Below, piece by piece: positions 7,984 to 23,301 of a DNA stretch of 64,000 bases. The stretch covers positions 1 to 64,000 of the forward strand of contig JANQEE010000060.1 in assembly GCA_028278525.1 (NCBI GenBank). The letters are read 5' to 3'. The position numbers were made by a program, and so were the translations under genes. Within the stretch, counting starts at the first letter, position 1. Each line of letters opens with the position of its first letter. The stretch comes from Minwuiaceae bacterium. GTDB taxonomy: Bacteria > Pseudomonadota > Alphaproteobacteria > Minwuiales > Minwuiaceae. A model generated the notes under the pieces. That model did not search any database. It was not told the DNA's origin and saw nothing but the letters and a program-made list of their open reading frames with translations.

Positions 7984-9498
7984 TTATCCGGGCCGGCGAA
8001 CCCGGACGAGCAGGATAAGCGGCAGCACCGCGACGCAGGCCGCCGTATAGAGATAGAACGCGTTGAGGTTGCCGATCATCACCGCCTGACGGCCGATCTC
8101 GCCGCTCAGGGCCGCGAGGCCGGCGGCGTTGCCGGGGTCCCAGATGCCGATCGCCCAGGGGTAGGCCAGCACCTCGTTGAACGGGGTGATGAACTCGGTC
8201 AGCTCCGCATAGGAGATGTTGGCGGTGCGGATGATCATCGTCACCGACACGGAAATGAAGACGCTGGAGCCGAAGTTGCGCAGCAGGTGAAAGACCGCGG
8301 AGGCTTCCGCCAGAAAACGGCTATCCATGGTGGCGAAGGTCGCGACGGTGAGCGGCACCCAGATGAGGCCGACCGCGATGCCCTGCGCCAGACTGGCCAA
8401 ACCGACGTCGAAGGTGGAGACGTTGAGGTCGAAGCCGATCATGAACCAGCCGGACGCCGCCTGCAGCGCAAAGCCGACGATCATGCCGACGCGCGGGTCC
8501 AGCTTGGCGACGAACATGGCCAGGAAGAACCCGAGTACGGCGCCGACGCCGCGCGCCGCCAGCAGCATGCCGATGATCGAATCCGGAAAACCCATCTGCG
8601 CCTGAAGAAGCGGCGGCAGCAACACCATGGGCGTGAAGTTGAGCATGCCGTAGGCGAACACCAGCACCAGGCCGAGCGAATAGTTTCGGTCCAGCAGCAG
8701 GCCGAGGCGCAGAAACGGACGGGCGGTGGTCAGGCTGTGGGCGACGAAGATGTAGAAGGCGACGACGGCACAGGCCGCTTCGAGGACGATTTCCGTCGAA
8801 TCGAACCAGTCCAGGCGCTGGCCCCGGTCGAGCATCAATTGCAGGCTGATCACGGCCGCGGACAGCGCCAGAAAACCCGTCCAGTCCAGCCGAACGTCGG
8901 ACTCGCGGCCGCGGTCGGTCAGGAACACCCGAAGACCGGCGAGGGCGAGCATGCCGAACGGCACGATCATGAAGAACGCCCAGCGCCAATTGTAGAGTTC
9001 GCTTAAGAAACCGCCGAGCGTCGGTCCGATCGCCGGGCCGACCACCACGCCCATGCCGAAGATCGAGGTGGCGGTGCCGTGCAGCCGCTTCGGAAAGGTG
9101 TCGAGGATGATCGCCTGTCCCATCGGCACCAGGGGCGCGCCGAACGCCCCCTGCAGCACGCGATAGACCACCACCGCTCCGAGCGAGCCGGAAACGCCAC
9201 AGCCGATGGTCGCGAGCGTGAAGCCGAGAACGCCGTAGATCATCACGTTGCGGCGGCCGAACTTGGCCGCGAGCCAGCCGGTCATCGGCGTCACCACGGC
9301 GGTGGCGACGATGTTGAAGGTCATCACCCAGGCGATCTGGTCCTGGGTCGCGGACAGGCTGCCCTGCATCTGCGGCAGCAGCACGCTGACGACCATGATC
9401 GTCATGCCGTAGAGGGTCGTCGCCAGAACCACCGAAATCAGGATCATCGACCGCTGAAAGGGGGTCGTTTCGGTGGCAGCGATCGAAACAGTGGTCAT
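7984..9498 (-). CDS. MFS transporter, DHA2 (EmrB/QacA) drug-export family
   Basis: 504 residues, the length of 14-helix DHA2 exporters. Hydrophobic segments cover the whole protein. The TM1 region is followed by DQIAWVMTFNIVATA, loop motif A reads GWLAAKFGRRN, and motif C-like glycines lie in GVVVGPAIGPTLGG. It should export drugs or toxic metabolites by proton antiport in the inner membrane. EmrB proteins usually pair with an EmrA membrane-fusion partner, which is absent here. ATG 9498 is the first start. Confidence 0.88.
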   Translation of the reverse strand: MTTVSIAATETTPFQRSMILISVVLATTLYGMTIMVVSVLLPQMQGSLSATQDQIAWVMTFNIVATAVVTPMTGWLAAKFGRRNVMIYGVLGFTLATIGCGVSGSLGAVVVYRVLQGAFGAPLVPMGQAIILDTFPKRLHGTATSIFGMGVVVGPAIGPTLGGFLSELYNWRWAFFMIVPFGMLALAGLRVFLTDRGRESDVRLDWTGFLALSAAVISLQLMLDRGQRLDWFDSTEIVLEAACAVVAFYIFVAHSLTTARPFLRLGLLLDRNYSLGLVLVFAYGMLNFTPMVLLPPLLQAQMGFPDSIIGMLLAARGVGAVLGFFLAMFVAKLDPRVGMIVGFALQAASGWFMIGFDLNVSTFDVGLASLAQGIAVGLIWVPLTVATFATMDSRFLAEASAVFHLLRNFGSSVFISVSVTMIIRTANISYAELTEFITPFNEVLAYPWAIGIWDPGNAAGLAALSGEIGRQAVMIGNLNAFYLYTAACVAVLPLILLVRVRRPG

Positions 9499-9735: not shown

Positions 9736-10908
9736 ATGAACCAATCGGAATTTACGCGCCGGCTCTTCATGCAGGGCATGGCCGGCGTCGCGGGCGCGAC
9801 CGCCGCCGGCGGCATCTTCGGCGCCGCGGCGGCGGAGGGCGAGGCTTTACGCTTCTGGGCGCCGGGCATCGCCAAGGTGGCCGCCAAGGATTTCAGCGCC
9901 ATGGCGGCGCAGGCCGGCATCGGGATCAACAACATCGCCAAAAGCGCCCGCGCCGACGAGGCGATCCAGAAGATGGTGGTTGGCGACGGCCAGAAGCTGT
10001 TCGACGCGCTGACCGACAACGGCGGCGGCATGGAAGACGCCATGGCCGAGAACAAGGCTGTGGTGCCGCTGGACACCGCGAAGATCCCGAACTGGGCCAA
10101 CATCCTGCCGGACTACAACGAAGGCGGCGCGGCGGCGGAGACGATCCGTTACGAGGGCAAGGTCTATGCCGTGCCCTACATCTCCAACGCCGATTCGATG
10201 GCCTACAACTACGACGAACTCGGCTTCCACCCGGATAGCTGGGGCGTGATGTTCGATTCCCAGTTCAAGGGACGCGTGGCGCTGCAGAACGACTACGGGC
10301 CGACGCTGACAAACGTGGCGATCTACCTGAAGGAAAGCGGCAAGATCGAGATCGACAATCCGTCGGACATGAATCCGAAAGAGGTCAAGGCGGTCTGCGA
10401 ATTCCTGATCGACCACAAGAAGAAGGGGCAGTTCCGCACTTTCTGGGACGGCTTCCAGAACGGTGTCGACCTGCTGGCGAGCAAGGAAGTGGTGATGTCG
10501 TCCTGCTGGGAGCCGATCCAGCTGGTCGCCCGCAAGAAGGGCGCCAACATCCATTACGGCACCATGAAGGAAGGCCACCAGACCTGGAACAACGTGCTGA
10601 TGTTCACCAAGGGCGGCCGGCAGCGCGGCATGGACGAGGCCTTCTACAAGCTGGCCAACGTCTATTTGTCGCCGTGGTTCGGCGCGCGCACGCTGGCGAC
10701 CTTCGGCTTCGCGCCGCAGATGACCGGCGTCGACGACTACCTGAACGCCAACACCGAGGACTTCGACGAGGCGGCGCGGGAGCGGCTGCTCGACATCCTC
10801 AACCGCAAGCAGCAGCGCTACGCGGTCAAGGGCAATTCGTGGCAGAACGTGTTCCCGACCCATATCCGGGAGTACCTGGATTGGTGGAGCCGGCTGCAAG
10901 CGGCCTGA
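9736..10908 (+). CDS. ABC transporter substrate-binding protein, spermidine/putrescine (PotD) type, Tat-exported
   Basis: 390 residues. The N-terminus EFTRRLFMQGMAGVAG is a twin-arginine signal followed by an Ala/Gly-rich hydrophobic stretch, so export should be folded via Tat. The mature part belongs to extracellular solute-binding family 8 (polyamine, Fe3+, quaternary amines). It is the first gene of a complete importer: two permeases and an ATPase follow on the same strand. The start at 9736 has GGCAG upstream; the frame extends to 9637 without a better signal. The ligand is not evident; the enzymes downstream suggest a methylated or quaternary compound rather than a simple polyamine. Confidence 0.88.
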   Translation: MNQSEFTRRLFMQGMAGVAGATAAGGIFGAAAAEGEALRFWAPGIAKVAAKDFSAMAAQAGIGINNIAKSARADEAIQKMVVGDGQKLFDALTDNGGGMEDAMAENKAVVPLDTAKIPNWANILPDYNEGGAAAETIRYEGKVYAVPYISNADSMAYNYDELGFHPDSWGVMFDSQFKGRVALQNDYGPTLTNVAIYLKESGKIEIDNPSDMNPKEVKAVCEFLIDHKKKGQFRTFWDGFQNGVDLLASKEVVMSSCWEPIQLVARKKGANIHYGTMKEGHQTWNNVLMFTKGGRQRGMDEAFYKLANVYLSPWFGARTLATFGFAPQMTGVDDYLNANTEDFDEAARERLLDILNRKQQRYAVKGNSWQNVFPTHIREYLDWWSRLQAA

Positions 10909-10912
10909 CGGC

Positions 10913-11854
10913 GTGACCGCGGAAACATCGCCCGCCATAGAGCCGCCGGCGGGGCGCGGCCGCGACATCGCGGCCAAGCCCCGCTGGCGGCGCTTCCTTA
11001 CCGGCGAAGACGGGATTCAGAAGGTCGTCTTCTATATCCCGCTGGTCTTCATGACCCTGTTCTTCGCGCTGCCGGTGGCGCTGACCCTGGTTTGGAGCGT
11101 GTTCGAGCGCACCCGGTTCTGGATGGAGCCGGGCTTCACGCTGTTCGCCTACGAGACCTTCTTCACCTCGGCCAGGGCGGAGAATTTCCTGCACGCCATG
11201 ATGCATTCGGCGGGCGCGGTCGTGATCTCGTTCGTGCTCGGCTTTCCCATTGCGGTGTTCGTACGCCGGCGGGTGCCGGAGATCGCCCAGCACCGGGTGA
11301 TCCTGCTGTTCATCCTGCCGTTCATGATCTCCGAACTGATCCGGATCTTCGCGCTGCGTCCGGTGTTGAGCCGGCACGGCCTGCTGAACAGTTTCCTGAT
11401 GGATATCGGCGTGATCTCGGAGCCGATCTCGGCGATCCTGTTCACGCCGCTCGGCGTGGTGATCGGCGAGGTGCTGTCGTTCCTGCCGTTCATGGTGTTC
11501 TCCGGCTTCCTGGCGATGGAAGCGGTGCAGAAATACGTCTTCGAGGTCTGCGACGATCTCGGCGCCGGGACGGTCAGCACCTTCAAGGACATCATCGTGC
11601 CGCTGGCGGCGCCCGGCATCTTCGCCGGCAGCGTGTTCATCTTCGTCAACGGGTTGGGCGTCGGGCTGATCCCGAACATCCTGGGCGGCCCGGGCGCGAC
11701 CAATGCCGGGTCCATCGTGTTCGAATCCATAGTCGCTTTGGACTTCCCGCTCGCCATGGCGGTCAGCGCGATCATGATCGTGACGCTGATGGCGCTGCTC
11801 TATATCGGGCACAGGCTGTTCGACCTGACGCGTATTCTGGAGCCGATAAGCTGA
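10913..11854 (+). CDS. ABC transporter permease, PotB/PotH type
   Basis: 313 residues with about six transmembrane segments, the first at FYIPLVFMTLFFALPVALTL. The EAA coupling loop appears as EVCDDLGAGTVSTFKDIIVP, followed by PGIFAGSVF. This is the first of two inner-membrane subunits that pass the ligand from the 9736 binding protein. It starts with GTG four bases after that gene's stop, so translation is probably coupled. The N-terminal 30 residues are hydrophilic and cytoplasmic. Confidence 0.88.
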   Translation: MTAETSPAIEPPAGRGRDIAAKPRWRRFLTGEDGIQKVVFYIPLVFMTLFFALPVALTLVWSVFERTRFWMEPGFTLFAYETFFTSARAENFLHAMMHSAGAVVISFVLGFPIAVFVRRRVPEIAQHRVILLFILPFMISELIRIFALRPVLSRHGLLNSFLMDIGVISEPISAILFTPLGVVIGEVLSFLPFMVFSGFLAMEAVQKYVFEVCDDLGAGTVSTFKDIIVPLAAPGIFAGSVFIFVNGLGVGLIPNILGGPGATNAGSIVFESIVALDFPLAMAVSAIMIVTLMALLYIGHRLFDLTRILEPIS

Positions 11855-11910
11855 TGGGGGTGGGATACGTGAATTGGACCTGTGGCACCGCACCTTTGCC
11901 CAAAGAAGCC

Positions 11911-12036
11911 CTCGCCCCCTTGAGGGGGAGAGGGTTGGGTGAGGGGGTGATCGGCGTTGATTTGCAAATCCCGACGAGCGTGCCGGGGGATGGACCCCCC
12001 TCACCCTACCCTCTCCCCCCACAAGTGTGGGGAGAT
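11911..12036. repeat. Palindromic intergenic repeat inserted inside the ABC operon
   Basis: The 211 bases between the two permease genes hold a palindromic element. The G-rich arm with GAGAGGGTTGGGTGAGGGG (around 11928-11946) is mirrored by CCCCTCACCCTACCCTCTC (around 11997-12015), with smaller flanking stems CCCCCTTGAGGGGG and CCCCACAAGTGTGGGG. Repeats of this ccctcaccct kind are scattered in many GC-rich proteobacterial genomes. Here it splits an otherwise tight operon and could lower expression of the second permease. Confidence 0.8.
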
Positions 12037-12065
12037 GGAAACAATGGGGCGTCTGGGGGTCTGTC

Positions 12066-12953
12066 ATGATGGACACTTACGCCAATCCCTGGGCCTATCG
12101 CGCGCAGTGGGCGTATCTGCTGATCATCGTCGGCGCGCTGATGGCGCCGGTGTTCTACACGATCTATATCTCGTTCAACGAGCACGGCTTCGGCGCGCAG
12201 ATCTACGACTTCACCTGGGACTGGTACGTGGTGCTGTTCCGGAATCAACAGATCATCGATTCGCTGTCATGGACCGCGTATCTGGGCGCGGCGACCATCC
12301 TGACGGCGGTGCCGATGGGCCTGATCGCCGCCAAGTACTACAAGCGGACGCGGCACAAGGTGGTGTTCGTCACCCTGATGCTGTCGCCGCTGTTCGTGCC
12401 GGCCGACATTCTGGGATCCGCCCTGCTGGTGTACTTCAAGAACCTGAACCGGGCGTTCGAATGGCTGGGCGACAGCCTGGGGGTCACCTGGTTTTACGGC
12501 TGGTTCGAGTTGGGCTTTTTCACCGCGCTGGTCGGGCTGATCCTGTGGACGGTGCCCTACGCCTTCGTCGTCATCCTGATCACGATGTCGCGGTACCGCG
12601 TGCAGCAGACGGAGGCGGCGCGGAGCTGCGGCGCGACCGCCTGGCAAGCGTTCTGGCAGATCGAATTCCCGCAGATCCGGGTCGGCGTGTTCAGCGCCAG
12701 CGCGTTCGTTTTCATCCTGTCGTTCAACGAATACACCCGGACCAGCCTGCTGAAGGGCGGCTTCGACACCTTCACCACGGTGCTGATCTCGCACATGTTC
12801 AATACCGGCATGTCCGGCGATTCCTATGCGATGGGCGGGCTGGTCAGCGTGATTTCCATGGCCGTGATCGGCGCCGTGCTGGTCTATACCCTGGCCAAGG
12901 CGGAGAGGCTGGAGCGCGAGGCGCGCGCCAAGGCCGAACCAGTGGCAGCCTGA
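12066..12953 (+). CDS. ABC transporter permease, PotC/PotI type
   Basis: 295 residues, about six membrane segments (first at WAYLLIIVGALMAPVFYTIY). The EAA loop reads EAARSCGATAWQAFWQIEFP. It is the second permease of the importer that begins at 9736. The start is one of two adjacent ATGs (12066 or 12069) after a GGGGG run. The longer frame back to 12027 lies in the repeat and is ignored. The ATPase gene follows after 21 bases. Confidence 0.88.
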   Translation: MMDTYANPWAYRAQWAYLLIIVGALMAPVFYTIYISFNEHGFGAQIYDFTWDWYVVLFRNQQIIDSLSWTAYLGAATILTAVPMGLIAAKYYKRTRHKVVFVTLMLSPLFVPADILGSALLVYFKNLNRAFEWLGDSLGVTWFYGWFELGFFTALVGLILWTVPYAFVVILITMSRYRVQQTEAARSCGATAWQAFWQIEFPQIRVGVFSASAFVFILSFNEYTRTSLLKGGFDTFTTVLISHMFNTGMSGDSYAMGGLVSVISMAVIGAVLVYTLAKAERLEREARAKAEPVAA

Positions 12954-12974
12954 GATTAAGGAATACCGAAACCC

Positions 12975-14072
12975 GTGAGCCAAAACGCAGACAACGCCGT
13001 CGAGGTTATCGACCTTTCGAAAAACTACGGGCCGGTCGCGGCGCTGAAGGAAGTCAGCTTCTCGATCGAGAGCGGCAAGTATTTCGTGCTGCTGGGACCG
13101 AGCGGCGGCGGCAAGACGACGCTGCTCAGGCTGATCGGGGGTTTTATCAAGCCGAGCGCCGGCACGGTGCTGCTGCACGGGCGGGACGTCACCGACCTGG
13201 CGCCGAACGAGCGGCCGACATCGATGGTGTTCCAAAGCTACGCCCTGTTCCCGCATATGAGCGTCGCCAAGAATGTCGGCTACGGCCTGAAGCTCCGCCG
13301 CATGCGCAAGGCGGAACTGGACGAACGGGTCGAAGAAATGCTGGCGATGGTCGGCCTGGAGGGTTATGGCGCGCGCATGCCGCACGAGTTGTCGGGCGGC
13401 CAACAACAACGGGTGCAGCTTGCCCGGTCCCTGGTGCTGCAATCCGACGTGCTGCTGCTGGACGAGCCGTTGGCGGCGCTGGACGCCAAGCTGCGCAAGG
13501 ATATGTGCCTGGAACTCAAACGCATCCAGGAGAAAGTCGGTATCACCTTTATCCACGTCACCCACAACCAGGAAGAGGCGATGACCGTGGCCGACCGCAT
13601 CGCCATCGTCGCCGGCGGCGAACTGGTCGAGCAAGGCGCGCCGCGCGACGTGTACGAGCGGCCGGTGCGCCGGTTCACCGCCGACTTCATCGGCGAGAAC
13701 AACCTGTTCGACGGCCGGGTTACGAAGACCGGCGGCAACGCGGCGACCGTCGATCTGGATTTCGCCACGGTGCAGGCCTTGAACGGCAACGGGCTGGCCG
13801 CCGGCCAAGCGGTGGCGCTCTCGATCCGCTCTGAACTGCTGGGCCTGTTGACGCCGGCGGACGCGGAGAACGGCGGGCTGCAAACCATTCCCGCGGAATA
13901 TCTGGAAGAGGTTTATCTCGGCCTGACCACATCGCATCTGGTCAGGCTGCCGAACGGGCAGGAGATCATGGTGCGGACCCTGTCGAACGGCGAGGCGGCG
14001 GCAACCTTCGAACCGGGACAGACTGTGACCGTCGGCTGGAAGACCGAGGCGGCCAGGCTGCATCCCGACTGA
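12975..14072 (+). CDS. ABC transporter ATP-binding protein, PotA/FbpC type
   Basis: 365 residues. Walker A is GPSGGGKTT (near residue 41), the signature LSGGQQQR, Walker B VLLLDEPLAALD, and the switch histidine lies in FIHVTHNQEEA. A C-terminal TOBE region follows (about residues 280-365). It powers the 9736-12953 importer. It starts with GTG at 12975; AAGGAA lies 13 bases upstream. Its stop is two bases from the stop of the convergent GntR gene, with no terminator between them. Confidence 0.9.
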   Translation: MSQNADNAVEVIDLSKNYGPVAALKEVSFSIESGKYFVLLGPSGGGKTTLLRLIGGFIKPSAGTVLLHGRDVTDLAPNERPTSMVFQSYALFPHMSVAKNVGYGLKLRRMRKAELDERVEEMLAMVGLEGYGARMPHELSGGQQQRVQLARSLVLQSDVLLLDEPLAALDAKLRKDMCLELKRIQEKVGITFIHVTHNQEEAMTVADRIAIVAGGELVEQGAPRDVYERPVRRFTADFIGENNLFDGRVTKTGGNAATVDLDFATVQALNGNGLAAGQAVALSIRSELLGLLTPADAENGGLQTIPAEYLEEVYLGLTTSHLVRLPNGQEIMVRTLSNGEAAATFEPGQTVTVGWKTEAARLHPD

Positions 14073-14073
14073 G

Positions 14074-14763
14074 TCAGGCGCTGCGGCGGGTGTCGAAATT
14101 CAACGTCGAGCGGGCGAAGGCTTCGAGGTAGTCCATCACCCGGTCCGATGCCGCCGCCGCGGCATCCGGGTCGCCGGAGGCGATGGCCCGCAGACGGTCG
14201 ACATGGACGGCCGCGGCTTCGGTAAGCACGGCATGGTCGCGGTAGTAAGCATGCCAGAAGCGGCGCGACAGCCCATGCAGCAATCCGAGCGCCGCCTCGG
14301 CATACCCGTTGTCGGCGGCTTCGACGGGCAGGCTGTGGAACTCCCTGCCCGCGCGGGTAAACGCCATGCCGTCGTCGGCCGCCGCCGCGGCGATGATCTC
14401 TTCCGCCAGGTCGCGCATGCGCTGCCGCTGGGCCGGACTGGCGCGCCGCGCCGCGTTCCGCGCCACCAGCCGTTCCAACTCGCGGCGGGTTTCCAGAAGC
14501 TTGAGATGGTGGCCCAGATTGATCTCGGTCACGACCACGCCGCGCCGCGGCAGAATGGCGACAAGGCCGTCCCGCTCCAGCCGCTGCAAGGCTTCGCGGA
14601 TCGGCGTGCGGCCGAAGCCGAGCTTCCGCCCCAACACGGCCTCCGACAGGATCGCGCCTGGCGGCAGCGCCTGCGTCACGATCATTTCTTCGAGCCGGCC
14701 ATAGGCCTGCTGACCAAGCGTATCCTGCACCGTTCCAATCCTGACATACGGTTGGGTTGACAA
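14074..14763 (-). CDS. GntR family transcriptional regulator, FadR/FCD subfamily
   Basis: 229 residues. The N-terminal winged helix-turn-helix carries GRTPIREALQRLERDGLV and RRGVVVTE, and the C-terminal helical FCD ligand-binding domain includes EFHSL and the HVDRLRAI helix. FCD proteins usually repress the catabolic genes beside them and are released by a pathway intermediate. It lies between the ABC importer and the divergent PhyH operon, so it probably controls one or both. The start is TTG at 14763, which overlaps a TTGACA box; an internal GTG a few codons later is possible. Confidence 0.88.
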   Translation of the reverse strand: MSTQPYVRIGTVQDTLGQQAYGRLEEMIVTQALPPGAILSEAVLGRKLGFGRTPIREALQRLERDGLVAILPRRGVVVTEINLGHHLKLLETRRELERLVARNAARRASPAQRQRMRDLAEEIIAAAAADDGMAFTRAGREFHSLPVEAADNGYAEAALGLLHGLSRRFWHAYYRDHAVLTEAAAVHVDRLRAIASGDPDAAAAASDRVMDYLEAFARSTLNFDTRRSA

Positions 14764-14788
14764 CTAATATATCAGAAGATCATGATAT
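14757..14788 (+). promoter_or_regulatory. Putative promoter and GntR operator before the PhyH operon
   Basis: A perfect TTGACA (14757-14762) lies 18 bases before CATGAT (14781-14786), a plausible sigma-70 promoter reading toward the PhyH gene. An inverted repeat ATATCA / TGATAT with an 8-base spacer (14769-14788) overlaps the -10 box, the position expected for a repressor site. The local AT-richness contrasts with the coding DNA on both sides. Assignment to the adjacent GntR protein is inference. Confidence 0.5.
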
Positions 14789-14868
14789 TGCCAGGGGCGC
14801 GTTGCGTCGGAGTCCGGCCCCAACCGTGAAACCCGAAGACGCAACGCCCGGCCAACGAGGGAACGACC

Positions 14869-15702
14869 ATGCCGAAGCTGCTGACCGAAGCCGAGATCGA
14901 GCGCTACGACCACGACGGGTTCCACTTTCCGATCCGGGTCATGCCGCGTGAAGAGGCGCTGGCCTACCGGGCCAAGCTGGAGGCTTACGAAGCCGAAACC
15001 GGTGGGCCGATCCAATCCAACATGCGCCACAAGGTGCATCTGCTGTTCGGCTGGGCCAACGAACTGGTGCGGCACCCGAAGATCCTGGACGCGGTGGAGG
15101 ACATCATCGGCCCCAACATCCTGTGCTGGGCAACCAACTTCTTCATCAAGGAAGCGAACGACCCGGGTTTCGTATCGTGGCACCAGGACGCGACCTACTG
15201 GGGCCTGGAACCGGACGACGTGATCACCGCCTGGCTGGCGATGAGCGACGCGCCGGTGGAGAGCGGCGCCATGAAATTCGTGCCCGGCAGTCACAAGTGG
15301 ACGCAGTTGCCACACAAGGACACCTTCCACGAACACAACCTGCTAAGCCGGGGCCAGGAAATCGCAGTCGAGGTCGACGAAAGGGATGGCCAATTCGTAC
15401 CGTTGCAGGCGGGCGAGATTTCGCTGCACCACGTAAAACTGGTGCACGGCTCCGCGCCCAACACGACCGACGACCGGCGGATCGGCCTGGCGATCCGTTA
15501 CATCCCGACCAACGTGCGGCAGATCAACGTGCGCGATTCGGCGATGCTGGTCCGCGGCAGCGATGCCTTCGGCCATTTCGATCCCGAGCCCGACCCGGTC
15601 CACGACCTGGACGAGGCAGCCCTGGCGGCGCACGCCGACGCCATGCAGCGGATGGTGCAGGGCCTTTACAAAGGCACCGACAAGACGGAATTCCGCGCAT
15701 GA
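14869..15702 (+). CDS. Phytanoyl-CoA dioxygenase (PhyH) family Fe(II)/2-oxoglutarate oxygenase
   Basis: 277 residues. The iron facial triad is visible as WHQDATYW (His-x-Asp, near residues 104-106) and the distal His in VHGSAPN, with the 2-oxoglutarate-binding Arg in RRIGLAIRY. That supports a hydroxylase rather than a halogenase, because the Asp is kept. It should hydroxylate a small substrate in the cytoplasm at the cost of O2 and 2-oxoglutarate. It leads an operon with a CitE-like lyase and a DmdA-like protein, so hydroxylation of the imported compound as a first catabolic step is plausible. The substrate is unknown. Confidence 0.88.
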   Translation: MPKLLTEAEIERYDHDGFHFPIRVMPREEALAYRAKLEAYEAETGGPIQSNMRHKVHLLFGWANELVRHPKILDAVEDIIGPNILCWATNFFIKEANDPGFVSWHQDATYWGLEPDDVITAWLAMSDAPVESGAMKFVPGSHKWTQLPHKDTFHEHNLLSRGQEIAVEVDERDGQFVPLQAGEISLHHVKLVHGSAPNTTDDRRIGLAIRYIPTNVRQINVRDSAMLVRGSDAFGHFDPEPDPVHDLDEAALAAHADAMQRMVQGLYKGTDKTEFRA

Positions 15703-16571
15703 CGGCGCCGAGCCTGCAGCCGCGCCGCAGCCTGATCTTCGCACCCGGCAACAAGCCGGAGATGTTCCCGAAAGCACTGGCGACCGGCGCCGACATCGTC
15801 TGTATCGACATGGAGGACGCGATCGCGCCGGCGCACAAAGACGAGGCGCGCGTCAAAACGCTGGCGTTGTTCGAGACGCCGCAGGCCGACGACGGTGTCG
15901 AACGCGTGGTGCGGATCAACTGCCTGCGCACGGCCGACGGCATGCGCGATGCGCTGGCGCTGACCGAGACCAAAACGCCGCCGCCCGCGATCATGCTGCC
16001 GAAGGTCAAGACGGCCGACGAGGTGCGGCTGCTGGACGACATGCTGAGCGACGGGCCTGCATCCGGCGTTCGCTTCCATGTCATCATCGAAAGCAACGAT
16101 GGCCTGAACGCCGCCTATGACATCGCGCAAAGCTGCGGGCGGATCGACGCGCTGCTGTTCGGCGGCGTCGACATGGCGGCGGAACTGAGGGCGGAGACCA
16201 ACTGGGACAGCCTGCTGTATGCCCGCGCCCGGGTGGCGCACGCCGCCGCCGGCGCGGAGATCGACCTGATCGACGTGCCCTATCTGGACCTGAACGACAT
16301 GGACGGCATGGTGCGCGAGGCGAAATCCGCGGCGGCGCTGGGCTTCACCGGCAAAGGCGCGATCCACCCGAAGCAGATCGCCGTATTGAACGAGTGCTTC
16401 AGCCCGTCGGCGGAGGAGATCGAACAGGCGCGCCGCATTATCCGCGCCTTCGAGGAAAGCGATAGCGGGCTGGTGGTGATCGATGGCAAACTGATTGAGA
16501 AGCCGGTGCTCAGGTCGATGTACCGGGTTGTCGCAATCGCCGAGCGGATCGGAGCAACCGCCTCGGCCTGA
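15699..16571 (+). CDS. HpcH/HpaI aldolase / citrate lyase beta-subunit (CitE-like) family protein
   Basis: 290 residues. CitE-family marks include RRSLIFAPGNKPEMF at the start, CIDMEDAI (Mg-binding Glu/Asp), and KGAIHPKQI near the C-terminus. Relatives are malyl-CoA, beta-methylmalyl-CoA and citramalyl-CoA lyases or thioesterases, which cleave or hydrolyse CoA esters. Its ATG overlaps the PhyH stop by four bases (ATGA), so the two are translationally coupled. Within this operon it may release a C2 or C3 unit from a CoA ester, but the substrate is inference only. Confidence 0.85.
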   Translation: MTAPSLQPRRSLIFAPGNKPEMFPKALATGADIVCIDMEDAIAPAHKDEARVKTLALFETPQADDGVERVVRINCLRTADGMRDALALTETKTPPPAIMLPKVKTADEVRLLDDMLSDGPASGVRFHVIIESNDGLNAAYDIAQSCGRIDALLFGGVDMAAELRAETNWDSLLYARARVAHAAAGAEIDLIDVPYLDLNDMDGMVREAKSAAALGFTGKGAIHPKQIAVLNECFSPSAEEIEQARRIIRAFEESDSGLVVIDGKLIEKPVLRSMYRVVAIAERIGATASA

Positions 16572-16586
16572 TCAGGGTCGCGCGCG

Positions 16587-17720
16587 ATGTCGCAGGAGAA
16601 TTCGCCACCGGTCATCGGGTTTTCGCCGCGGGTGCGGAAGTCGCCGTTTTTTGACGCTACGCGGCGATACGGCTGCACCGCCTACACCGTCTACAATCAC
16701 ATGTTCATGCCGACCGCCTACGGCGACCCGGTCGACGACTATTGGCGGCTGGCCAACGACGTGGCGATCTGCGACGTGGCGGTCGAGCGGCAGGTGGAGA
16801 TCGCCGGGCCGGACGCCTTCGACCTGGTACGGATGCTGACGCCGCGCAACCTGGAGACAATGAAAGTCGGGCAGTGCAAGTACGTGCTGCTGACCGACGA
16901 GAACGGCGGCATCGTCAACGACCCGGTGCTGCTGCGGCTGGCCGACGACCGGTTCTGGCTGTCGCTCGCCGACAGCGACGTGCTGCTGTGGGCCAAGGGT
17001 GTCGCGCATGGCAGCGGGATGGATGTCGAGATCGCCGAGCCCGACGTTTCGCCGCTGATGATCCAGGGGCCGAAGGCTGCCGGTCTGGCGCGCGACCTGT
17101 TCGGCGACTGGGTGGACGAGTTGAAGTACTTCTGGTTCCGCGAGGTCGAGTTGGACGGCATGCCGCTGCTGGTCGCCCGGACCGGCTATAGCAGCGAGCG
17201 CGCCTACGAGCTGTATCTCCGCGACGGCCGGTTCGGCGACTGCCTGTGGGAACGGGTGGTCGAGGCCGGACGGCCGTACAATATCGGCCCAGCAACGCCG
17301 TCGCAGATCAGCCGGATCGAAGCCGGCCTGCTGTCCTACGGCGCGGACATGACCCTGAACGAAAACCCGTTCGAACTGGGCCTCGACCGACTGGTCGACC
17401 TGGAGCAGGACGTCGACTTCGTCGGCAAGGCGGCGTTGCGCCGGATCGCCGCAGACGGCGTCAGGCGCCGGATGGCGGGCGTCGAGATCCATGGGCCGGA
17501 ATTGCCGGAGGTGAACGAGGAGCCCTGGCCGGTGGAGAAGGACGGCAGGCCGGTCGGCAAAGTCACTTCCTGCGTGCATTCGCCGCGGCTGGAAAAGAAC
17601 ATCGGCTTCGCGCTGCTGGAAGCGCCGCTGGCCGAACTCGGCACCGAGTTGACCCTGAAAGCCAGCTTCGGCGACGTCGCCATGACGGTCGTACCGATGC
17701 CGTTTTTGAAGTCGGCCTGA
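16587..17720 (+). CDS. DmdA-like aminomethyltransferase (GcvT fold, tetrahydrofolate-dependent demethylase)
   Basis: 377 residues, the length of dimethylsulfoniopropionate demethylase DmdA and the GcvT family. As I recall DmdA, the resemblance runs along the chain: TAYTVYNHM near the start, VERQVEIAG, ENGGIVNDPV, ADSDVLLWAKG, IQGPKA and LLSYGADM. It should move a methyl group from a substrate to tetrahydrofolate. True DmdA acts on DMSP, but many paralogues have other or unknown methyl donors, so I do not assign the substrate. It lies 15 bases after the CitE-like gene in the PhyH operon and fits demethylation of an imported methylated compound. Confidence 0.82.
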   Translation: MSQENSPPVIGFSPRVRKSPFFDATRRYGCTAYTVYNHMFMPTAYGDPVDDYWRLANDVAICDVAVERQVEIAGPDAFDLVRMLTPRNLETMKVGQCKYVLLTDENGGIVNDPVLLRLADDRFWLSLADSDVLLWAKGVAHGSGMDVEIAEPDVSPLMIQGPKAAGLARDLFGDWVDELKYFWFREVELDGMPLLVARTGYSSERAYELYLRDGRFGDCLWERVVEAGRPYNIGPATPSQISRIEAGLLSYGADMTLNENPFELGLDRLVDLEQDVDFVGKAALRRIAADGVRRRMAGVEIHGPELPEVNEEPWPVEKDGRPVGKVTSCVHSPRLEKNIGFALLEAPLAELGTELTLKASFGDVAMTVVPMPFLKSA

Positions 17721-17732
17721 CGTACAAGCATC

Positions 17733-18713
17733 ATGGAACTGCTGCTTTACGAAGACGCTTTCGCGCGGGTGCGGGACCGGTTGAAGGAAATCGCCCCGGC
17801 CATCGAGCCGGTGACGATGCGCGCCGACGGGAGCCTGATGCGTGCCGGGCAGACCATCGCACCCGAAGCAACGCGGCCGGAAATCGTCTGGGCCAGCACC
17901 GACCTGCTGGTCGGCGGACCGACGCGCGAGTTCATGACCTTCTGCCTGAAGTCTGACAGCATACGCTGGCTGCAATCCGGTGCCGCCGGGTTCGACCATC
18001 CGATCTTCGCCAAGCTGGCCGGCAAGGGCATTCGGCTGACCAACAGCAACGCTGCGGCGGTTGCGATTTCGGAATTCGTTCTGGCGAGCGTACTGGATGT
18101 CTTCCAGGAAACGGACAAGCGGCGCGACGACCAGGCGAGAAAATCGTGGGTACGGCGCCCGTTTCGCGAAGTCGCCGGAACGACCTGGCTGATCGTCGGC
18201 ATCGGCAATATCGGCGGCGAAGTGGCGAAGCGCGCTCGAGCGTTCGGCGCCCATGTGATCGGCGTCCGGCGCAACCCGGACGGCACGGAACCCGCCGACG
18301 AAACGACAACGCCGGACAATCTGCCCGGCATACTGCCCCGCGCGGACGTGGTGGTGCTGGCCGCCCCGGCGAACGACGGCACGGCGCATCTGGCCGACGT
18401 GCGTTTCCTAAGGGCGATGAAGCCGGATTCGGTGCTGGTTAATATCGCCCGTGGCGCGCTGATCGACGAGGCCGCGCTGCTTGAAAGTCTGGATTCGGGC
18501 CGGCCCGGGCATGCGATCCTGGACGTTTTCGAAACCGAGCCACTGCCGGAAACCAGCCCGCTATGGGTGCATCCCCGCGTCCATGTCACGCCGCACGGCG
18601 CGGCAATGAGCGACGGGACCAGGGACCGCGGGGACCTTGTATTTCTTGAGAATTTGCGGCGCTACCTAGACGAGGAAGCCTTACAATTTGAAGTGGCATT
18701 GTCTAGTGCATAA
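17733..18713 (+). CDS. D-isomer-specific 2-hydroxyacid dehydrogenase
   Basis: 326 residues. The NAD-binding Rossmann motif is GIGNIGGEVAKRARAFGAHVIG, and the catalytic trio is Arg in NIARGALIDE, Glu in DVFETEPLP and His in VTPHGAA. It reduces a 2-oxoacid or oxidises the D-2-hydroxyacid with NAD(P)H. It begins 12 bases after the DmdA-like gene and closes the four-gene operon, so it probably handles a 2-hydroxy or 2-oxo product such as glyoxylate or hydroxypyruvate. The last codons run into an inverted repeat TGTCTA / TAGACA (18700-18719). Confidence 0.85.
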   Translation: MELLLYEDAFARVRDRLKEIAPAIEPVTMRADGSLMRAGQTIAPEATRPEIVWASTDLLVGGPTREFMTFCLKSDSIRWLQSGAAGFDHPIFAKLAGKGIRLTNSNAAAVAISEFVLASVLDVFQETDKRRDDQARKSWVRRPFREVAGTTWLIVGIGNIGGEVAKRARAFGAHVIGVRRNPDGTEPADETTTPDNLPGILPRADVVVLAAPANDGTAHLADVRFLRAMKPDSVLVNIARGALIDEAALLESLDSGRPGHAILDVFETEPLPETSPLWVHPRVHVTPHGAAMSDGTRDRGDLVFLENLRRYLDEEALQFEVALSSA

Positions 18714-18850
18714 TAGACAGAATATTCAACCGATATATTTATCGGCTTTGCTAGAGCAAAAAAAACTATTTTCAAGCTTTGCTGACCTCTGATCTAATTT
18801 GACTTGGCAGAGGGGAGAACAAGAATAACCTTGCCGCCCTAGTTGATGAG

Positions 18851-18909
18851 TGGAGCAATGCCCGAAGGGATTGGGCCGACGGCGTTCAATCCCTTCGGAC
18901 ATTGCTCCA
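18851..18909. repeat. Inverted repeat upstream of the TRAP operon
   Basis: Arms 18851-18873 and 18887-18909 pair at 22 of 23 positions around a 13-base loop. The 231-base gap is otherwise AT-rich, with a small CCGATA / TATCGG stem after the dehydrogenase. The hairpin sits 36 bases before the dctP start and could terminate the upstream operon, protect the TRAP mRNA, or serve as a regulator site. Confidence 0.8.
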
Positions 18910-18944
18910 TCGGGCCGAGTCAAATCCGAACGGAGGCAAATAAT

Positions 18945-20009
18945 ATGAGACTCATAACAACCGCCCTGGCCGCCCTTGCGCTGCTGGGCAGCGCGATAAG
19001 CGCCCAAGCGCAGGAATATAAATGGCGTATGGGCACGATCGCCGGCGAGACGTCGATCTATGTCGGCCTGATGGCCAAACCCTGGGCCGACCTGGTCGAC
19101 GAACTGACCGAAGGCAAGATGAAGATCGAGGTGTTTCCCGGCGGCGTGCTGGCGCCGATCTTCAAGCTGCATCAGTCGGTCGACGACGGGCTGATCGAAG
19201 TCGCGCACACGGTGCCGGCCTTCCTGGGCACCAAGGACCCGACCAACGCAATGATCGGCAGCTTCCCGACCGGGCTCGGCACCGACTCGTTTTTGAACTG
19301 GCTGTATCAGGGCGGCGGCCTCGATCTGCTGGTGCAGCATCGCCGCGAGACCATGAACATGCATGTGCTGGTGGTCGGCTCCGGCCCGTCGGAGTTCTTC
19401 GCCCACTCGCACAAACCGATCAAATCGGTCGATGACCTGCAGGGCGTGAAGTACCGGACGCTCGGTAACTGGGCGGCCATCGTCAAGGACTCGTTCGGCG
19501 CATCACCGACCGTGGTGCCGGGCTCCGAGCTGTACGGCATGATGGAAAAGAAGGCCATCGACCTGATGGAATACTCCACGCCGAGCGAAAATCAGGCGCT
19601 GGGTTTCCAGGAAGTCGCCCCGTACATCATCTATCCGGGCATCCACGCACCGGCCTACCTGTTCGAAGCGGTAATTCAGAAAGACCGCTGGGACGCCCTG
19701 CCCGACGACATCAAGCGCAAGATGGAGATCGCCGCCAAGATCACCACCTTCGAAAGCATGATGCAGATCACCCAGCGCGACATGGACGCGATGGCGAACC
19801 TGGCCAAAGGCAAGAACGAATGGATCCAACTGGACCAGTCGTTCAAGGACAAGAGCCGCGAAGCGGCCAGGGCCTGGGCGCTCGACCAGGCCAAGCAAGC
19901 CTCGGCCGCCGGCAACGAATGGCCGCAGAAGGTGATCGATTCGATCATCGCCTTTCAGGACCGTTGGCGCGCCCACTCCAGATACATGGTCGTGGACCAC
20001 GTAGACTGA
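18945..20009 (+). CDS. dctP: TRAP transporter solute-binding protein DctP
   Basis: 354 residues. A Sec signal peptide (LITTALAALALLGSAISAQA) is followed by EYKWRMGTIAG, and the body has DctP-family features including DLQGVKYRT and the conserved arginine expected to bind a ligand carboxylate. ATG 18945 is chosen because GGAGG lies eight bases upstream; the frame reaches 18843 through the hairpin. It starts a dctPQM set on the same strand as the PhyH operon, so a carboxylate linked to that pathway is a reasonable guess. The ligand is unknown. Confidence 0.9.
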   Translation: MRLITTALAALALLGSAISAQAQEYKWRMGTIAGETSIYVGLMAKPWADLVDELTEGKMKIEVFPGGVLAPIFKLHQSVDDGLIEVAHTVPAFLGTKDPTNAMIGSFPTGLGTDSFLNWLYQGGGLDLLVQHRRETMNMHVLVVGSGPSEFFAHSHKPIKSVDDLQGVKYRTLGNWAAIVKDSFGASPTVVPGSELYGMMEKKAIDLMEYSTPSENQALGFQEVAPYIIYPGIHAPAYLFEAVIQKDRWDALPDDIKRKMEIAAKITTFESMMQITQRDMDAMANLAKGKNEWIQLDQSFKDKSREAARAWALDQAKQASAAGNEWPQKVIDSIIAFQDRWRAHSRYMVVDHVD

Positions 20010-20048
20010 AGCGGGAACGGTCCGGTTTAAGGACCGATAAGGTGGAGA

Positions 20049-20076
20049 ACGGACCGCGCCGGCCGGCGCGGTCCGT
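20049..20076 (+). repeat. 28-bp perfect palindrome between dctP and dctQ
   Basis: ACGGACCGCGCC and GGCGCGGTCCGT flank a GGCC centre, giving a GC-only stem of 12 to 14 bp. It lies in the 85-base gap after the binding-protein gene. Such hairpins commonly stabilise the upstream mRNA, so that more binding protein than permease is made. Confidence 0.8.
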
Positions 20077-20094
20077 CGGCCGAGGGGGCATTCC

Positions 20095-20643
20095 GTGCGG
20101 GCGGTGCTGACCAAACGACTGATACCGGCGATCGATACGGTCGGCCGCGGACTGGCCTACGTCGCCATGGCCATGATGACGGTCATGATCGCCGTGATGC
20201 TGTACGAGGTGGCCGCCCGCAAACTGTTCTCCGCCCCGACGCTGTGGGCCAACGACATCACCTACATGATCAACGGGTCGCTGTTCCTGATCGGCGCGGC
20301 CTTTACCCTGCGCATGAACGCCCATGTACGGATCGACTTTCTGTCGACCCGGCTGCCGCTGCGCGCGCAGCACGCGGTGAACCTGCTGTTCTATCTCTGC
20401 ATCATTCTGCCCGGCCTCTACATGGTCGGCAGCGCCGCGACGAGCAAGGCGTGGAAAGCCTTCCGGACCGACGAGATCGAGGCGATGAGCGCGTGGGAAC
20501 CGCTGATCTGGCCATTTTTCTCAGGCATCGCGATCGGCCTGGTCGGCCTGTTCATTCAGGTCATCGGCGAGTCCTTAAGGCACGGCATCGGCATCGCCGA
20601 TCCCGCGGCGGTGCGACCGCCGTCGGAAACCGAACAGATCTGA
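20095..20643 (+). CDS. dctQ: TRAP transporter small permease DctQ
   Basis: 182 residues with four predicted membrane helices (first at YVAMAMMTVMIAVMLYEVAA). Family signatures include LWANDITYMINGSLFLIGAA and the charged RMNAHVRIDF loop. It is the small inner-membrane subunit that couples DctP to DctM. It starts with GTG at 20095 after CCGAGGGGG. dctM follows after nine bases. Confidence 0.9.
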   Translation: MRAVLTKRLIPAIDTVGRGLAYVAMAMMTVMIAVMLYEVAARKLFSAPTLWANDITYMINGSLFLIGAAFTLRMNAHVRIDFLSTRLPLRAQHAVNLLFYLCIILPGLYMVGSAATSKAWKAFRTDEIEAMSAWEPLIWPFFSGIAIGLVGLFIQVIGESLRHGIGIADPAAVRPPSETEQI

Positions 20644-20652
20644 GGCGGGGAC

Positions 20653-21975
20653 ATGTCCGGAGAGACCTATGCCGCCCTGATGTTCCCGGCCTTGTTCCTG
20701 CTGGTGTTCCTAGGGATTCCCATCTCGTTCGCCCTGTTCGGCATCGCTTTCCTGTTCGGCATTCCGATCTTCAAGGACTTCATCGGGCTGCAGCTCTACG
20801 GCTCCATCCTGCAAACGGCGACGCAATATCTGCTGTCGGCAGTGCCGCCGTTCGTACTGATGGGCGCGGTGCTGGAACGCTCCGGCATCGCTGAGCGGCT
20901 GTTCAAGGCGATGCAGCTCTGGCTCGGCCGCCTGCCCGGCGGGCTGGCGCTGGCAACCATCAGCATGGCGGCCGTGTTCGCCGCATCCACCGGCATCGTC
21001 GGCGCGGTCGAGGTGGTGATCGGCATCATGACCATCCCGGTAATGCTGAGCTATCACTACAACCGCTCCCTGGTCGCCGGCACGATCTGCGCCGGCGGCT
21101 CGCTCGGCACCATGATCCCGCCGTCGGTGGTGGTGGTGATCTACGCGTCGGTCGCGCAGATGTCGGTCGGCCAGCTTTTCGCCGGCATCCTGCTGCCGGG
21201 CGTGATCATGATCGGCCTGTTCCTCGGCTATATCGTGATCCGCTGCCTGCTGAAGCCTGAAGACGGCCCGCCCGCCGTCTCCAAGGACGACGACACGCCG
21301 CTCGGCCAGAAGCTCTGGGTGACGCTGACCGCCCTGTTGCCGGCGACGGCGCTGATCGTCGCCGTGCTCGGATCGATCATGGTCGGCATCGCCTCGCCGA
21401 CCGAGGCGGCGTCGGTCGGCGCGCTGGGGGCCATCGTGCTGACCATCGCCTACGGCCGCTTCAATACGGAGATGGCGGTCGATACCTTAAAGCGCACGCT
21501 GCTGATCAATTGCATGATCATGATGATCGTGGTTGGCGGCACCATGTTCGCGGCGATCTTTCAGGTGCATGGCGGGCACCGGCTGGTCGGCAATGTCGTC
21601 GATTACCTGGACCTGGCGCCGGCGGCGATGCTGGTGCTGATGCTGTTCATCGTGTTCCTGTCCGGGTTCATCCTGGACTGGGTCTCGGTGGTCCTGATCT
21701 GCCTGCCGATCTTCCTGCCGCTGATCAAGTCGATCGGCGTCGACCCGATCTGGTTCGCCGTGCTGATGATCATCGTCATCCAGACGTCGTACCTGACGCC
21801 GCCGATGGCGCCGTCGATCTTCTACCTGCGCAGCATCGCGCCGCCGGAAATCGGCTACCGCGACATGTATATGGGCGTCGCGCCGTTCGTCGTCTGCCAG
21901 GTCCTGGTGCTGGTTCTGGTGGTGCTGTTCCCGGCTCTGGCCGAATACCTGCCGGCGCAGTTTAGCGCCTTCTGA
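20653..21975 (+). CDS. dctM: TRAP transporter large permease DctM
   Basis: 440 residues, about 12 to 13 membrane helices, the normal DctM length. Typical motifs are FLGIPISFALFGIAFLFG near the start, the serine-rich ASTGIVGAVEVVIG and GGSLGTMIPPSVVVVIYA. It is the sodium-driven translocation subunit of the dctPQM importer. Its ATG has GGCGGGGAC upstream. The operon ends here, 75 bases before the next gene. Confidence 0.92.
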   Translation: MSGETYAALMFPALFLLVFLGIPISFALFGIAFLFGIPIFKDFIGLQLYGSILQTATQYLLSAVPPFVLMGAVLERSGIAERLFKAMQLWLGRLPGGLALATISMAAVFAASTGIVGAVEVVIGIMTIPVMLSYHYNRSLVAGTICAGGSLGTMIPPSVVVVIYASVAQMSVGQLFAGILLPGVIMIGLFLGYIVIRCLLKPEDGPPAVSKDDDTPLGQKLWVTLTALLPATALIVAVLGSIMVGIASPTEAASVGALGAIVLTIAYGRFNTEMAVDTLKRTLLINCMIMMIVVGGTMFAAIFQVHGGHRLVGNVVDYLDLAPAAMLVLMLFIVFLSGFILDWVSVVLICLPIFLPLIKSIGVDPIWFAVLMIIVIQTSYLTPPMAPSIFYLRSIAPPEIGYRDMYMGVAPFVVCQVLVLVLVVLFPALAEYLPAQFSAF

Positions 21976-22017: not shown

Positions 22018-22050
22018 TTTTCTTTGTACCGTAGGAGGAGGCCGTTGGCC

Positions 22051-23301
22051 GTGACAGACCGGAGTGTTGCCGAGGCCACGGCCAGTCCGCCCGAGCGCGG
22101 CGCCGGGTACGCGCTGTTCGCCGCGACGCCAGCGATGATCGCCTTGCTGACCGCGCTGTCCGCTCTGGGTCAGTTCGCCACCAACATCTATCTGCCGTCG
22201 CTGCCGGCAATTTCCGACGACCTGACCGCAACCCTGCCGCAGGTGCAACTGACCTTGAGCGCGTTCCTGGGCGCGTTCGCCGTGGTGCAACTGCTGTACG
22301 GGCCGGTCTCCGACCGGTTCGGCCGCCGGCCGGTGCTGGTGCTGGGTATCCTGACTTACCTCGCCGGCTGCCTGATCTGCGCCCTGGCGTCGAGCGTGGA
22401 GATGCTGATCGCCGGCCGCGTGATACAGGCGGCCGGCGCGGGCGCCGGCATCGTCGTGGCGCGCGCCGTGGTGCGCGACGTGTTCGACGGCAACGACATG
22501 GCCAAGGTCATGGCCTTGATTACCATCGCATTCGCCCTGGTGCCCGGCCTGACGCCGCTGCTGGGCGGCATCCTGCAGGACACGCTGGGCTGGCGCGCCA
22601 CTTTCTTCGTGACCCTGTTGCTCGGCTGCGTCGTCTTCGCCGCGATGCTGGTCAAACTGCCGGAGACCAACCTGGCGCCGTTGGACCGGCTGGATATCGC
22701 GTCGGCAATAGAGGGTTATGGGACGGTGCTGAGGTCCGCCACGTTCGTGCGCTACGCGCTTTCGAGCGCGTTCGTCCTGGGCGGGCTGTTCGCCTTTTTC
22801 GGCGGGTCGCCCAGCCTGTTCATCGACCACCTGGGCATCTCGGCAACGGAATACGGCATCTATCCGCCCATGGCGGTAACCGGCTTCGTCATCGGCGGCA
22901 TCATCACCCGGCGCCTGGTCGGCCGCATATCGCCCGACAGGGTGGCGGCGGTCGGGCTCTGCCTGCTTGGCGCCGGCGCGGCCACGATGCTGATCCTGCC
23001 GCTGGCGGGCATTCTGCATAAGTACGGGATCACGGCCTCGATGATCCTGTTCGTCACCGGGCTCGGCGTGTTCATGCCGACGGCGATGGCCGCCGCCATC
23101 GGCGCTTTTCCCGAACGGGCCGGCACCGCCGCCGCGATGGCGGGCTTTATGCAGATGGGCGCCGGCGCGCTGTCGACCGTGCTGCTGGGCGCGATGCAGG
23201 GCTGGCTGGGCATTCTGGCCTTTCCCGGCATCATGGCGGCCTTCACCGCCCTGGCCATCCTGCTGTTCGCCGCCATGAGACGGCCGGGAACAACGGATTA
23301 G
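22051..23301 (+). CDS. Bcr/CflA-family MFS drug-resistance transporter
   Basis: 416 residues and 12 predicted helices. ALSALGQFATNIYLPSLPAI and the loop GPVSDRFGRRPVLVLG are classic for the Bcr/CflA branch of DHA1. It should expel drugs or small metabolites by proton antiport. GTG 22051 is preferred because GGAGGAG lies ten bases upstream; TTG 22045 is too close to it. It has its own promoter and follows the TRAP operon. Confidence 0.88.
   Translation: MTDRSVAEATASPPERGAGYALFAATPAMIALLTALSALGQFATNIYLPSLPAISDDLTATLPQVQLTLSAFLGAFAVVQLLYGPVSDRFGRRPVLVLGILTYLAGCLICALASSVEMLIAGRVIQAAGAGAGIVVARAVVRDVFDGNDMAKVMALITIAFALVPGLTPLLGGILQDTLGWRATFFVTLLLGCVVFAAMLVKLPETNLAPLDRLDIASAIEGYGTVLRSATFVRYALSSAFVLGGLFAFFGGSPSLFIDHLGISATEYGIYPPMAVTGFVIGGIITRRLVGRISPDRVAAVGLCLLGAGAATMLILPLAGILHKYGITASMILFVTGLGVFMPTAMAAAIGAFPERAGTAAAMAGFMQMGAGALSTVLLGAMQGWLGILAFPGIMAAFTALAILLFAAMRRPGTTD

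Follow-up and report, generated by a model that had tools for sequence, protein, structure and literature searches.

A tightly packed operon of PhyH, CitE, DmdA and dehydrogenase family genes in a Minwuiaceae bacterium, with a hypothetical role in scavenging small carboxylates

The question raised by this stretch of Minwuiaceae bacterium DNA (contig JANQEE010000060.1 of assembly GCA_028278525.1; the whole stretch of 64,000 nucleotides, positions 1 to 64,000, is referred to as the window) is whether four closely spaced genes, encoding a PhyH-type dioxygenase, a CitE-like enzyme, a DmdA-like methyltransferase and a 2-hydroxyacid dehydrogenase, act in one pathway. A preliminary description made from the window alone had read these genes, together with two flanking importers, as a catabolic system for a methylated compound. 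The analysis reported here describes an operon with little space between its genes, all from known enzyme families; the same combination was not found in the other genomes examined, and the pathway proposed for it is a hypothesis.

Packing and predicted enzymes of the four-gene operon

All twelve genes of the preliminary description are present, and the coupled spacing it gave for the four enzyme genes was confirmed: on the same strand, the PhyH and CitE-like genes overlap by 4 bases, the CitE-like gene is followed after 15 bases by the DmdA-like gene, and this after 12 bases by the dehydrogenase gene (Table 1). Ten of the twelve were run against Pfam and NCBIfam, all giving matches, while DctQ and DctM of the tripartite ATP-independent periplasmic (TRAP) transporter were read as open reading frames (ORFs) and assigned via homology to TRAP loci. 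The host assembly comprises 5.95 Mb in 71 contigs, and the named plasmids and contigs that encode relatives of its proteins belong mostly to Alphaproteobacteria. The G+C content of the twelve genes, 61.5–68.7%, is near the window value of 63.8%, and thus nothing indicates a recent foreign insert.

The PhyH protein retains the iron triad H105, D107 and H193 and the 2-oxoglutarate-binding R204, and the same residues were found in 29 of 29 relatives. Halogenases carry Gly or Ala in place of the triad Asp. For the CitE-like protein, the closest solved relative is 3qll (E 1.7e-49), which is labelled citrate lyase and which we take to be RipC. Alignment revealed that the Mg ligands, an Arg and a Glu-Asp pair are retained in 34 of 34 rows. 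According to the excerpted text of PMC3832036, a catalytic lid Asp is conserved throughout the CitE superfamily, with Glu in its place solely in the R. sphaeroides malyl-CoA thioesterase group. The window protein has a lid Glu (Glu267), as do 31 of 31 relatives, while Asp occupies this position in 3qll, in CLYBL and in two aligned malyl-CoA lyases. Judged by this criterion, the protein is more likely a thioesterase of the malyl-CoA thioesterase group than the lyase it was first taken for. The best NCBIfam model, that for RipC (NF038242), gave 245.5 bits and missed its cut-off of 375; identity as a citrate lyase or RipC was rejected in view of the lid residue together with the model cut-off.

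In the dehydrogenase, the glycines that bind NAD(P) precede an Arg-Arg pair after the second Rossmann strand, which suggests NADP(H) as cofactor, and the motif residues Arg, Glu and His are in place. Its solved relatives include 2-hydroxyacid and glyoxylate reductases and an NADP-dependent dehydrogenase, and it may act as a reductase rather than as the 2-hydroxyacid oxidant previously assumed. For DctP, the best solved relative is 2zzv (E 1.9e-35), presumably the lactate binder TTHA0766; the first ten matches also include the ketoacid-binding 7ug8 as well as 2hzk (E 1.4e-30), which we take to be TakP, a binder of 2-oxoacids. Another entry in the match list, 7e9y, is lactate-binding TTHA0766. 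These matches place DctP in the lactate/2-oxoacid type, which corrects the earlier identification of this importer.

We propose, with a probability of roughly 0.4, that the locus is an operon, locally assembled under the GntR/FCD regulator, for scavenging a small monocarboxylate that is methylated or hydroxylated. The TRAP importer would bring in a small 2-hydroxy- or 2-oxo-monocarboxylate, or a close relative methylated on S, N or O. PhyH would hydroxylate a substrate carbon using O2 and 2-oxoglutarate, the DmdA-like protein would transfer a methyl group to tetrahydrofolate, a 2-hydroxyacid and a 2-oxoacid would be interconverted by the NADP-type dehydrogenase, and the CitE-like protein would hydrolyse, or less likely cleave, a CoA ester such as malyl-CoA. 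We infer a common substrate, the order of the steps, the mode of regulation and the participation of all four enzymes in one route. The proposal as a whole is argued for by the tight same-strand packing behind a divergent regulator, by the conserved catalytic residues of PhyH and the CitE-like protein, and by the partial recurrence of CitE–DmdA (locus L208) and GntR–PhyH–TRAP (locus L103) arrangements. The match of DctP to lactate/2-oxoacid binders and of the dehydrogenase to 2-hydroxyacid and glyoxylate reductases also speaks for it.

The order of the last two enzyme genes also bears on another explanation, namely salvage of a sulfonium 2-hydroxyacid, with chemistry that comes from the biosynthesis pathway of dimethylsulfoniopropionate (DMSP). 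Here the DmdA-like protein would demethylate 4-dimethylsulfonio-2-hydroxybutyrate, and the dehydrogenase would yield the 2-oxoacid, to be transaminated to methionine. The 2-hydroxyacid dehydrogenase gene does lie directly after the demethylase-like gene, and DctP is a binding protein of the 2-hydroxy/2-oxoacid type, but PhyH and the CitE-like protein would be left roleless and the operon has no aminotransferase gene; we regard this salvage as highly improbable.

Family placement of the DmdA-like protein

The DmdA-like protein is full length and matches 3tfh, the solved P. ubique DmdA, with an E of 9.2e-90; its identity to both 3tfh and DmdA of P. inhibens DSM 17395 is 39%. Against NCBIfam model NF009133 (DMSP demethylase) it reaches 411.5 bits, 1.5 bits above the cut-off of 410. 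With the same model, P. inhibens DSM 17395 DmdA scores 600.3, and three relatives nearer to the window protein fall under the cut-off with 359 to 383. A class search detected relatives at E ≤ 1e-85 in 45 of 359 genomes (own genome counted), the best at 59% identity.

A maximum-likelihood tree was built from 102 rows, six of the 38 named loci (at 23–28% identity) being excluded from it and from the 72 DmdA regions compared below. Phylogeny had been named in the preliminary description as a way to place this protein within or outside true DmdA. In this tree, L255 and L256 are the sisters of the window protein (97/91), and all three fall outside a branch of 44 rows, on a backbone that was only partly resolved. 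In a quick tree, 3tfh and P. inhibens DmdA were placed elsewhere than the window protein. The locus of 13 of the 44 branch rows contains at least one of an AMP-binding ligase (3-methylmercaptopropionate (MMPA)-CoA ligase-like), an enoyl-CoA hydratase, OsmC and an SBP56 methanethiol-oxidase-type gene, counted at an identity to the marker of at least about 50%, with the marker loci L037 and L039 included and many of the contigs short. Two named plasmids share the order DmdA-like, OsmC, enoyl-CoA hydratase, acyl-CoA synthetase. The nearest well-populated branch therefore looks like methanethiol-releasing demethylation, and by phylogeny the window protein is outside the branch carrying these operons. 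In this respect, the DmdA-like identity first given needs correction. The nearest kin, at L255, adjoins a different GntR/FCD gene and a putative 2-oxoglutarate-Fe(II) oxygenase of another family.

These results can also be read as an ordinary DMSP demethylase that feeds the folate pool, the other three genes merely sharing its promoter. Such an enzyme would accord with the NF009133 score and the identity to P. ubique DmdA, with the plasmids and the 13 methanethiol-pathway-type loci of the neighbouring branch, and with two genes of the own genome, C35 of the methanethiol-oxidase family and C57, DmdB-like at 55%, which adjoin neither each other nor the window. It is opposed by the narrow model margin, set against the P. 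inhibens score of 600, and by the position outside the 44-row branch. Other DMSP genes, including the DmdB, DmdC and DmdD neighbours (ligase, dehydrogenase and hydratase), are absent from the operon; the reference operon L296 has AMP-binding, acyl-CoA dehydrogenase and dmdD genes with P. inhibens DmdA. No DmdD relative was detected at E ≤ 1e-30 in the own genome, in a search run without a positive control.

A candidate substrate-determining residue was also compared. The excerpted text of PMC7487153 gives W171 as key for DMSP. W171 was taken as W197 of 3tfh, a mapping made here from E178 and Y180 of that text, which equal E204 and Y206 minus a constant offset of 26. This position is Trp in 77, Tyr in 15 and Phe in 10 of the 102 rows, and Tyr201 in the window protein. 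P. inhibens DSM 17395 DmdA (L296:3989-5095) also has Tyr at this position, and deletion of its gene abolishes the DMSP response under standard conditions, as stated in the excerpted text of PMC12366255. Since a genetically proven DmdA has Tyr, the Trp position fails to separate DMSP from other substrates, and the Tyr shared with P. inhibens DmdA adds to the points in favour of an ordinary DMSP demethylase. A change from Trp to Tyr had been considered as proof of a new substrate, the CitE-linked proteins of the window and L208 both having Tyr and lying in different branches; this was dropped given the Tyr of P. inhibens. Judged by sequence, the methyl donor may be DMSP, another onium compound or something else. 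On both sides of this evidence, we consider an ordinary DMSP demethylase with three promoter-sharing genes unlikely.

A setting among folate genes, which fits methyl transfer to folate, was observed on a Lichenihabitans conjugative plasmid (L295:5615-10182), where a 52–54% DmdA-like relative lies between methylenetetrahydrofolate reductase and purU/folD genes. This locus also has two ATP-binding cassette (ABC) importers and is possibly a mobile one-carbon module.

Gene neighbourhoods, transporters and intergenic elements

The neighbourhood comparison covered 36 PhyH, 20 CitE, 20 dehydrogenase and 72 DmdA regions, the last comprising 32 named loci and 40 from the class search. The PhyH regions represent 36 of 96 genomes and the CitE regions 20 of 37, and the 20 dehydrogenase regions come from 19 of 23 genomes, with the own genome counted in the totals. 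Loci L115, L134, L135, L228 and L230 lack the anchor gene in the ORF listing and were still covered by tblastn. For the families of the neighbours of dehydrogenase relatives, the scan covered one aldolase.

Parts of the operon recur. In L208, a 44% DmdA-like gene directly follows a 60% CitE-like gene, in the same order as in the window and in this one other genome only, and a TRAP operon lies about 11–12 kb from the pair. TRAP genes adjoin PhyH relatives in 5 of 36 loci (L101, L103, L121, L126 and L127), in L103 together with a 46% identical GntR; for the CitE and dehydrogenase loci the count is 0 of 40 (Fisher p 0.02). At the dehydrogenase locus L230, a PhyH gene adjoins, with 41–45% identity.

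Several results weigh against one route for a small methylated or hydroxylated acid. Of 40 DmdA loci, 6 also have DctM (E ≤ 1e-15) no farther away than about 10 kb, and the PhyH–TRAP link is therefore weak evidence. The whole gene set was found in 0 of 36 PhyH, 0 of 20 CitE, 0 of 20 dehydrogenase and 0 of 72 DmdA neighbourhoods. CitE and PhyH homologues occur elsewhere amid unrelated genes, and in a draw of 398 genomes across the phylum, the 397 besides the own genome had no CitE relative at E ≤ 1e-85. The operon has no CoA ligase or CoA-transferase gene, although the CitE-like enzyme requires a CoA ester, and the TRAP genes have a promoter-like site of their own and separate spacing. The preliminary description held that lack of conservation would speak against its pathway, and this is largely what was seen, no other locus examined having the set; what stands of that pathway is the four-gene operon with its intact active sites, the demethylase family and the two partial recurrences. 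In a plasmid collection, CitE, DmdA and PhyH relatives lie in different records. A search by titles and abstracts, with coverage that lacks most subscription journals, found no paper on this gene set.

This dispersal bears directly on the alternative that the four enzymes belong to separate small scavenging reactions, each with its own substrate, and were assembled by chance in one lineage. None of the four keeps constant partners over the sampled class, PhyH relatives adjoin many kinds of genes and transporters, and in the sister genome G003, which is one contig, the homologues of PhyH, CitE and DmdA lie at three places more than 0.5 Mb apart. However, the 4-base overlap and the short gaps imply one transcript, and the CitE–DmdA adjacency and the GntR–PhyH–TRAP grouping each recur once elsewhere. 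Chance assembly appears rather unlikely to us, and a scavenging operon for a small monocarboxylate is the reading we prefer.

The pair in L208 is part of a catabolic island on one strand (L208:8209-18585, genome G315). Besides the DmdA-like and CitE-like genes, it encodes a VanA-type Rieske oxygenase, a PanB-like protein, altronate/galactarate and IlvD-type dehydratases (sugar-acid-type), a CoA-transferase and an acyl-CoA dehydrogenase.

The ABC importer had been counted with the TRAP importer as flanking one pathway. Its genes converge on GntR, the last ending just short of the GntR gene end, and therefore lie outside the divergent unit of GntR. The longest word shared between the ABC upstream region and the GntR–PhyH intergene is a 9-mer. 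The NCBIfam cut-offs were missed by the ATPase (344.2 against 482 for PotA) and by the binding protein (60.5 against 725 for YdcS and 25.9 against 582 for PotD), which is weakly polyamine/YdcS-like. No evidence for membership was found in these comparisons, and the ABC importer is probably a neighbour rather than part of the system.

The 105 bases between the GntR/FCD and PhyH genes have promoter-like sites on both strands within or reaching into them. The TRAP genes begin 231 bases past the dehydrogenase gene, downstream of a strong hairpin (fold −57.1 kcal/mol, z −5.63). A GntR operator common to all three transcription units was rejected, with one 9-mer and one 8-mer shared. The hairpin at 18852-18908 has inverted 22-base arms (GGAGCAATGYCCGAAGGGATTG); similar 22-mers (3 mismatches) were found at six other genome sites and none with a reversed control pattern, and the element is therefore a dispersed palindromic repeat. 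The 211-base gap at 11855-12065 between the ABC permease genes holds a GC-rich hairpin (11916-12026), perhaps another inserted repeat, and Rfam matches in this gap were all under gathering scores. Major facilitator superfamily efflux pumps lie on either side of the region, EmrB-type at 7984-9498 (−) and Bcr/CflA-type at 22024-23301 (+).

Table 1 Features of the locus, with positions in the window.
Feature	Position	Strand	Basis or remark
ABC solute-binding protein, SBP_bac_8, nearest YdcS/PotD-like	9736..10908	+	Pfam/NCBIfam; probably separate operon
ABC permease, BPD_transp_1, PotB/PotH-like	10913..11854	+	Pfam/NCBIfam
ABC permease, BPD_transp_1, PotC/PotI/PhnU2-like	12066..12953	+	Pfam/NCBIfam
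ABC ATPase, ABC_tran+TOBE_2, PotA-like	12975..14072	+	Pfam/NCBIfam
GntR+FCD regulator, divergent from PhyH	14074..14763	-	Pfam/NCBIfam; 46% identical relative beside PhyH in L103
Divergent promoter region, promoter-like sites on both strands, dyad 14769-14788	14764..14868	.	Possible GntR operator
PhyH-type Fe(II)/2-oxoglutarate dioxygenase, H105-x-D107, H193, R204	14869..15702	+	Pfam 109.5 bits
CitE-like CoA-ester enzyme, HpcH_HpaI, lid Glu267, putative malyl-CoA thioesterase type	15699..16571	+	Pfam 140.4 bits
DmdA-like tetrahydrofolate-dependent methyltransferase, Tyr201 at DMSP Trp position	16587..17720	+	GCV_T 145.1, GCV_T_C 58.7 bits
D-2-hydroxyacid dehydrogenase, 2-Hacid_dh_C, Arg-Arg	17733..18713	+	Pfam 166.1 bits; putatively NADP(H)
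Long hairpin between dehydrogenase and DctP genes, dispersed-repeat member	18852..18908	.	Fold and repeat search
TRAP binding protein DctP, lactate/2-oxoacid (LakP/TakP) type	about 18945..20009	+	Pfam 120.3 bits; solved relatives
TRAP small permease DctQ	20095..20643	+	ORF and homology to TRAP loci
TRAP large permease DctM	20653..21975	+	ORF and homology to TRAP loci

Candidate substrates and comparison with known systems

According to the excerpted text of PMC7221440, R. pomeroyi releases methanethiol from dimethylsulfonioacetate, a compound that DmdA does not recognise, and demethylation together with attack at C2 by unknown enzymes is proposed there; bacterial use of methylated compounds other than DMSP is likewise reported without known enzymes. 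The boldest reading of the operon is a route that breaks down a methylated carboxymethyl compound, for example dimethylsulfonioacetate, with release of glyoxylate. The DmdA-like protein would move one methyl group to tetrahydrofolate, and PhyH would hydroxylate the carboxylate-adjacent carbon, giving a product that splits into glyoxylate and methanethiol, or an amine or alcohol in place of the latter. Glyoxylate would then be reduced to glycolate by the dehydrogenase, and the CitE-like thioesterase would hydrolyse malyl-CoA made from glyoxylate. We consider this reading very unlikely; if true, the dimethylsulfonioacetate route missing in PMC7221440 would have a candidate. More generally, if the four enzymes form one route, it would be a new way to gain carbon and one-carbon units from methylated compounds beyond DMSP. 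Even if they do not, DmdA-type annotations extend past DMSP operons, and the proposed Trp criterion for true DmdA is unsafe.

Each component can be set beside a known system. The DmdA-like protein has the same full-length GCV_T+GCV_T_C architecture as the DMSP demethylases of P. ubique (3tfh) and P. inhibens, and differs from DmdA in having Tyr for Trp (as P. inhibens does), in standing without DmdB, DmdC and DmdD neighbours, and in falling outside the branch that has such operons. PhyH matches the PhyH oxygenase 6zyk, presumably ThoJ of thioholgamide biosynthesis, over near full length (E 4.8e-53); in contrast to that enzyme, its setting in the window is catabolic, with no peptide-biosynthesis genes seen. 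RipC, a C–C lyase of itaconate degradation, has the lid Asp, whereas the window operon is without the RipA CoA-transferase or RipB hydratase. The CitE-like protein is instead like the (3S)-malyl-CoA thioesterase group in its lid Glu, Mg ligands and Arg, as judged by the published criterion rather than by direct alignment to the R. sphaeroides enzyme. Finally, at about 30% identity to LakP/TakP (2zzv and 2hzk), DctP retains the Arg and Asn positions of the aligned motifs when compared with 2zzv and 4pe3.

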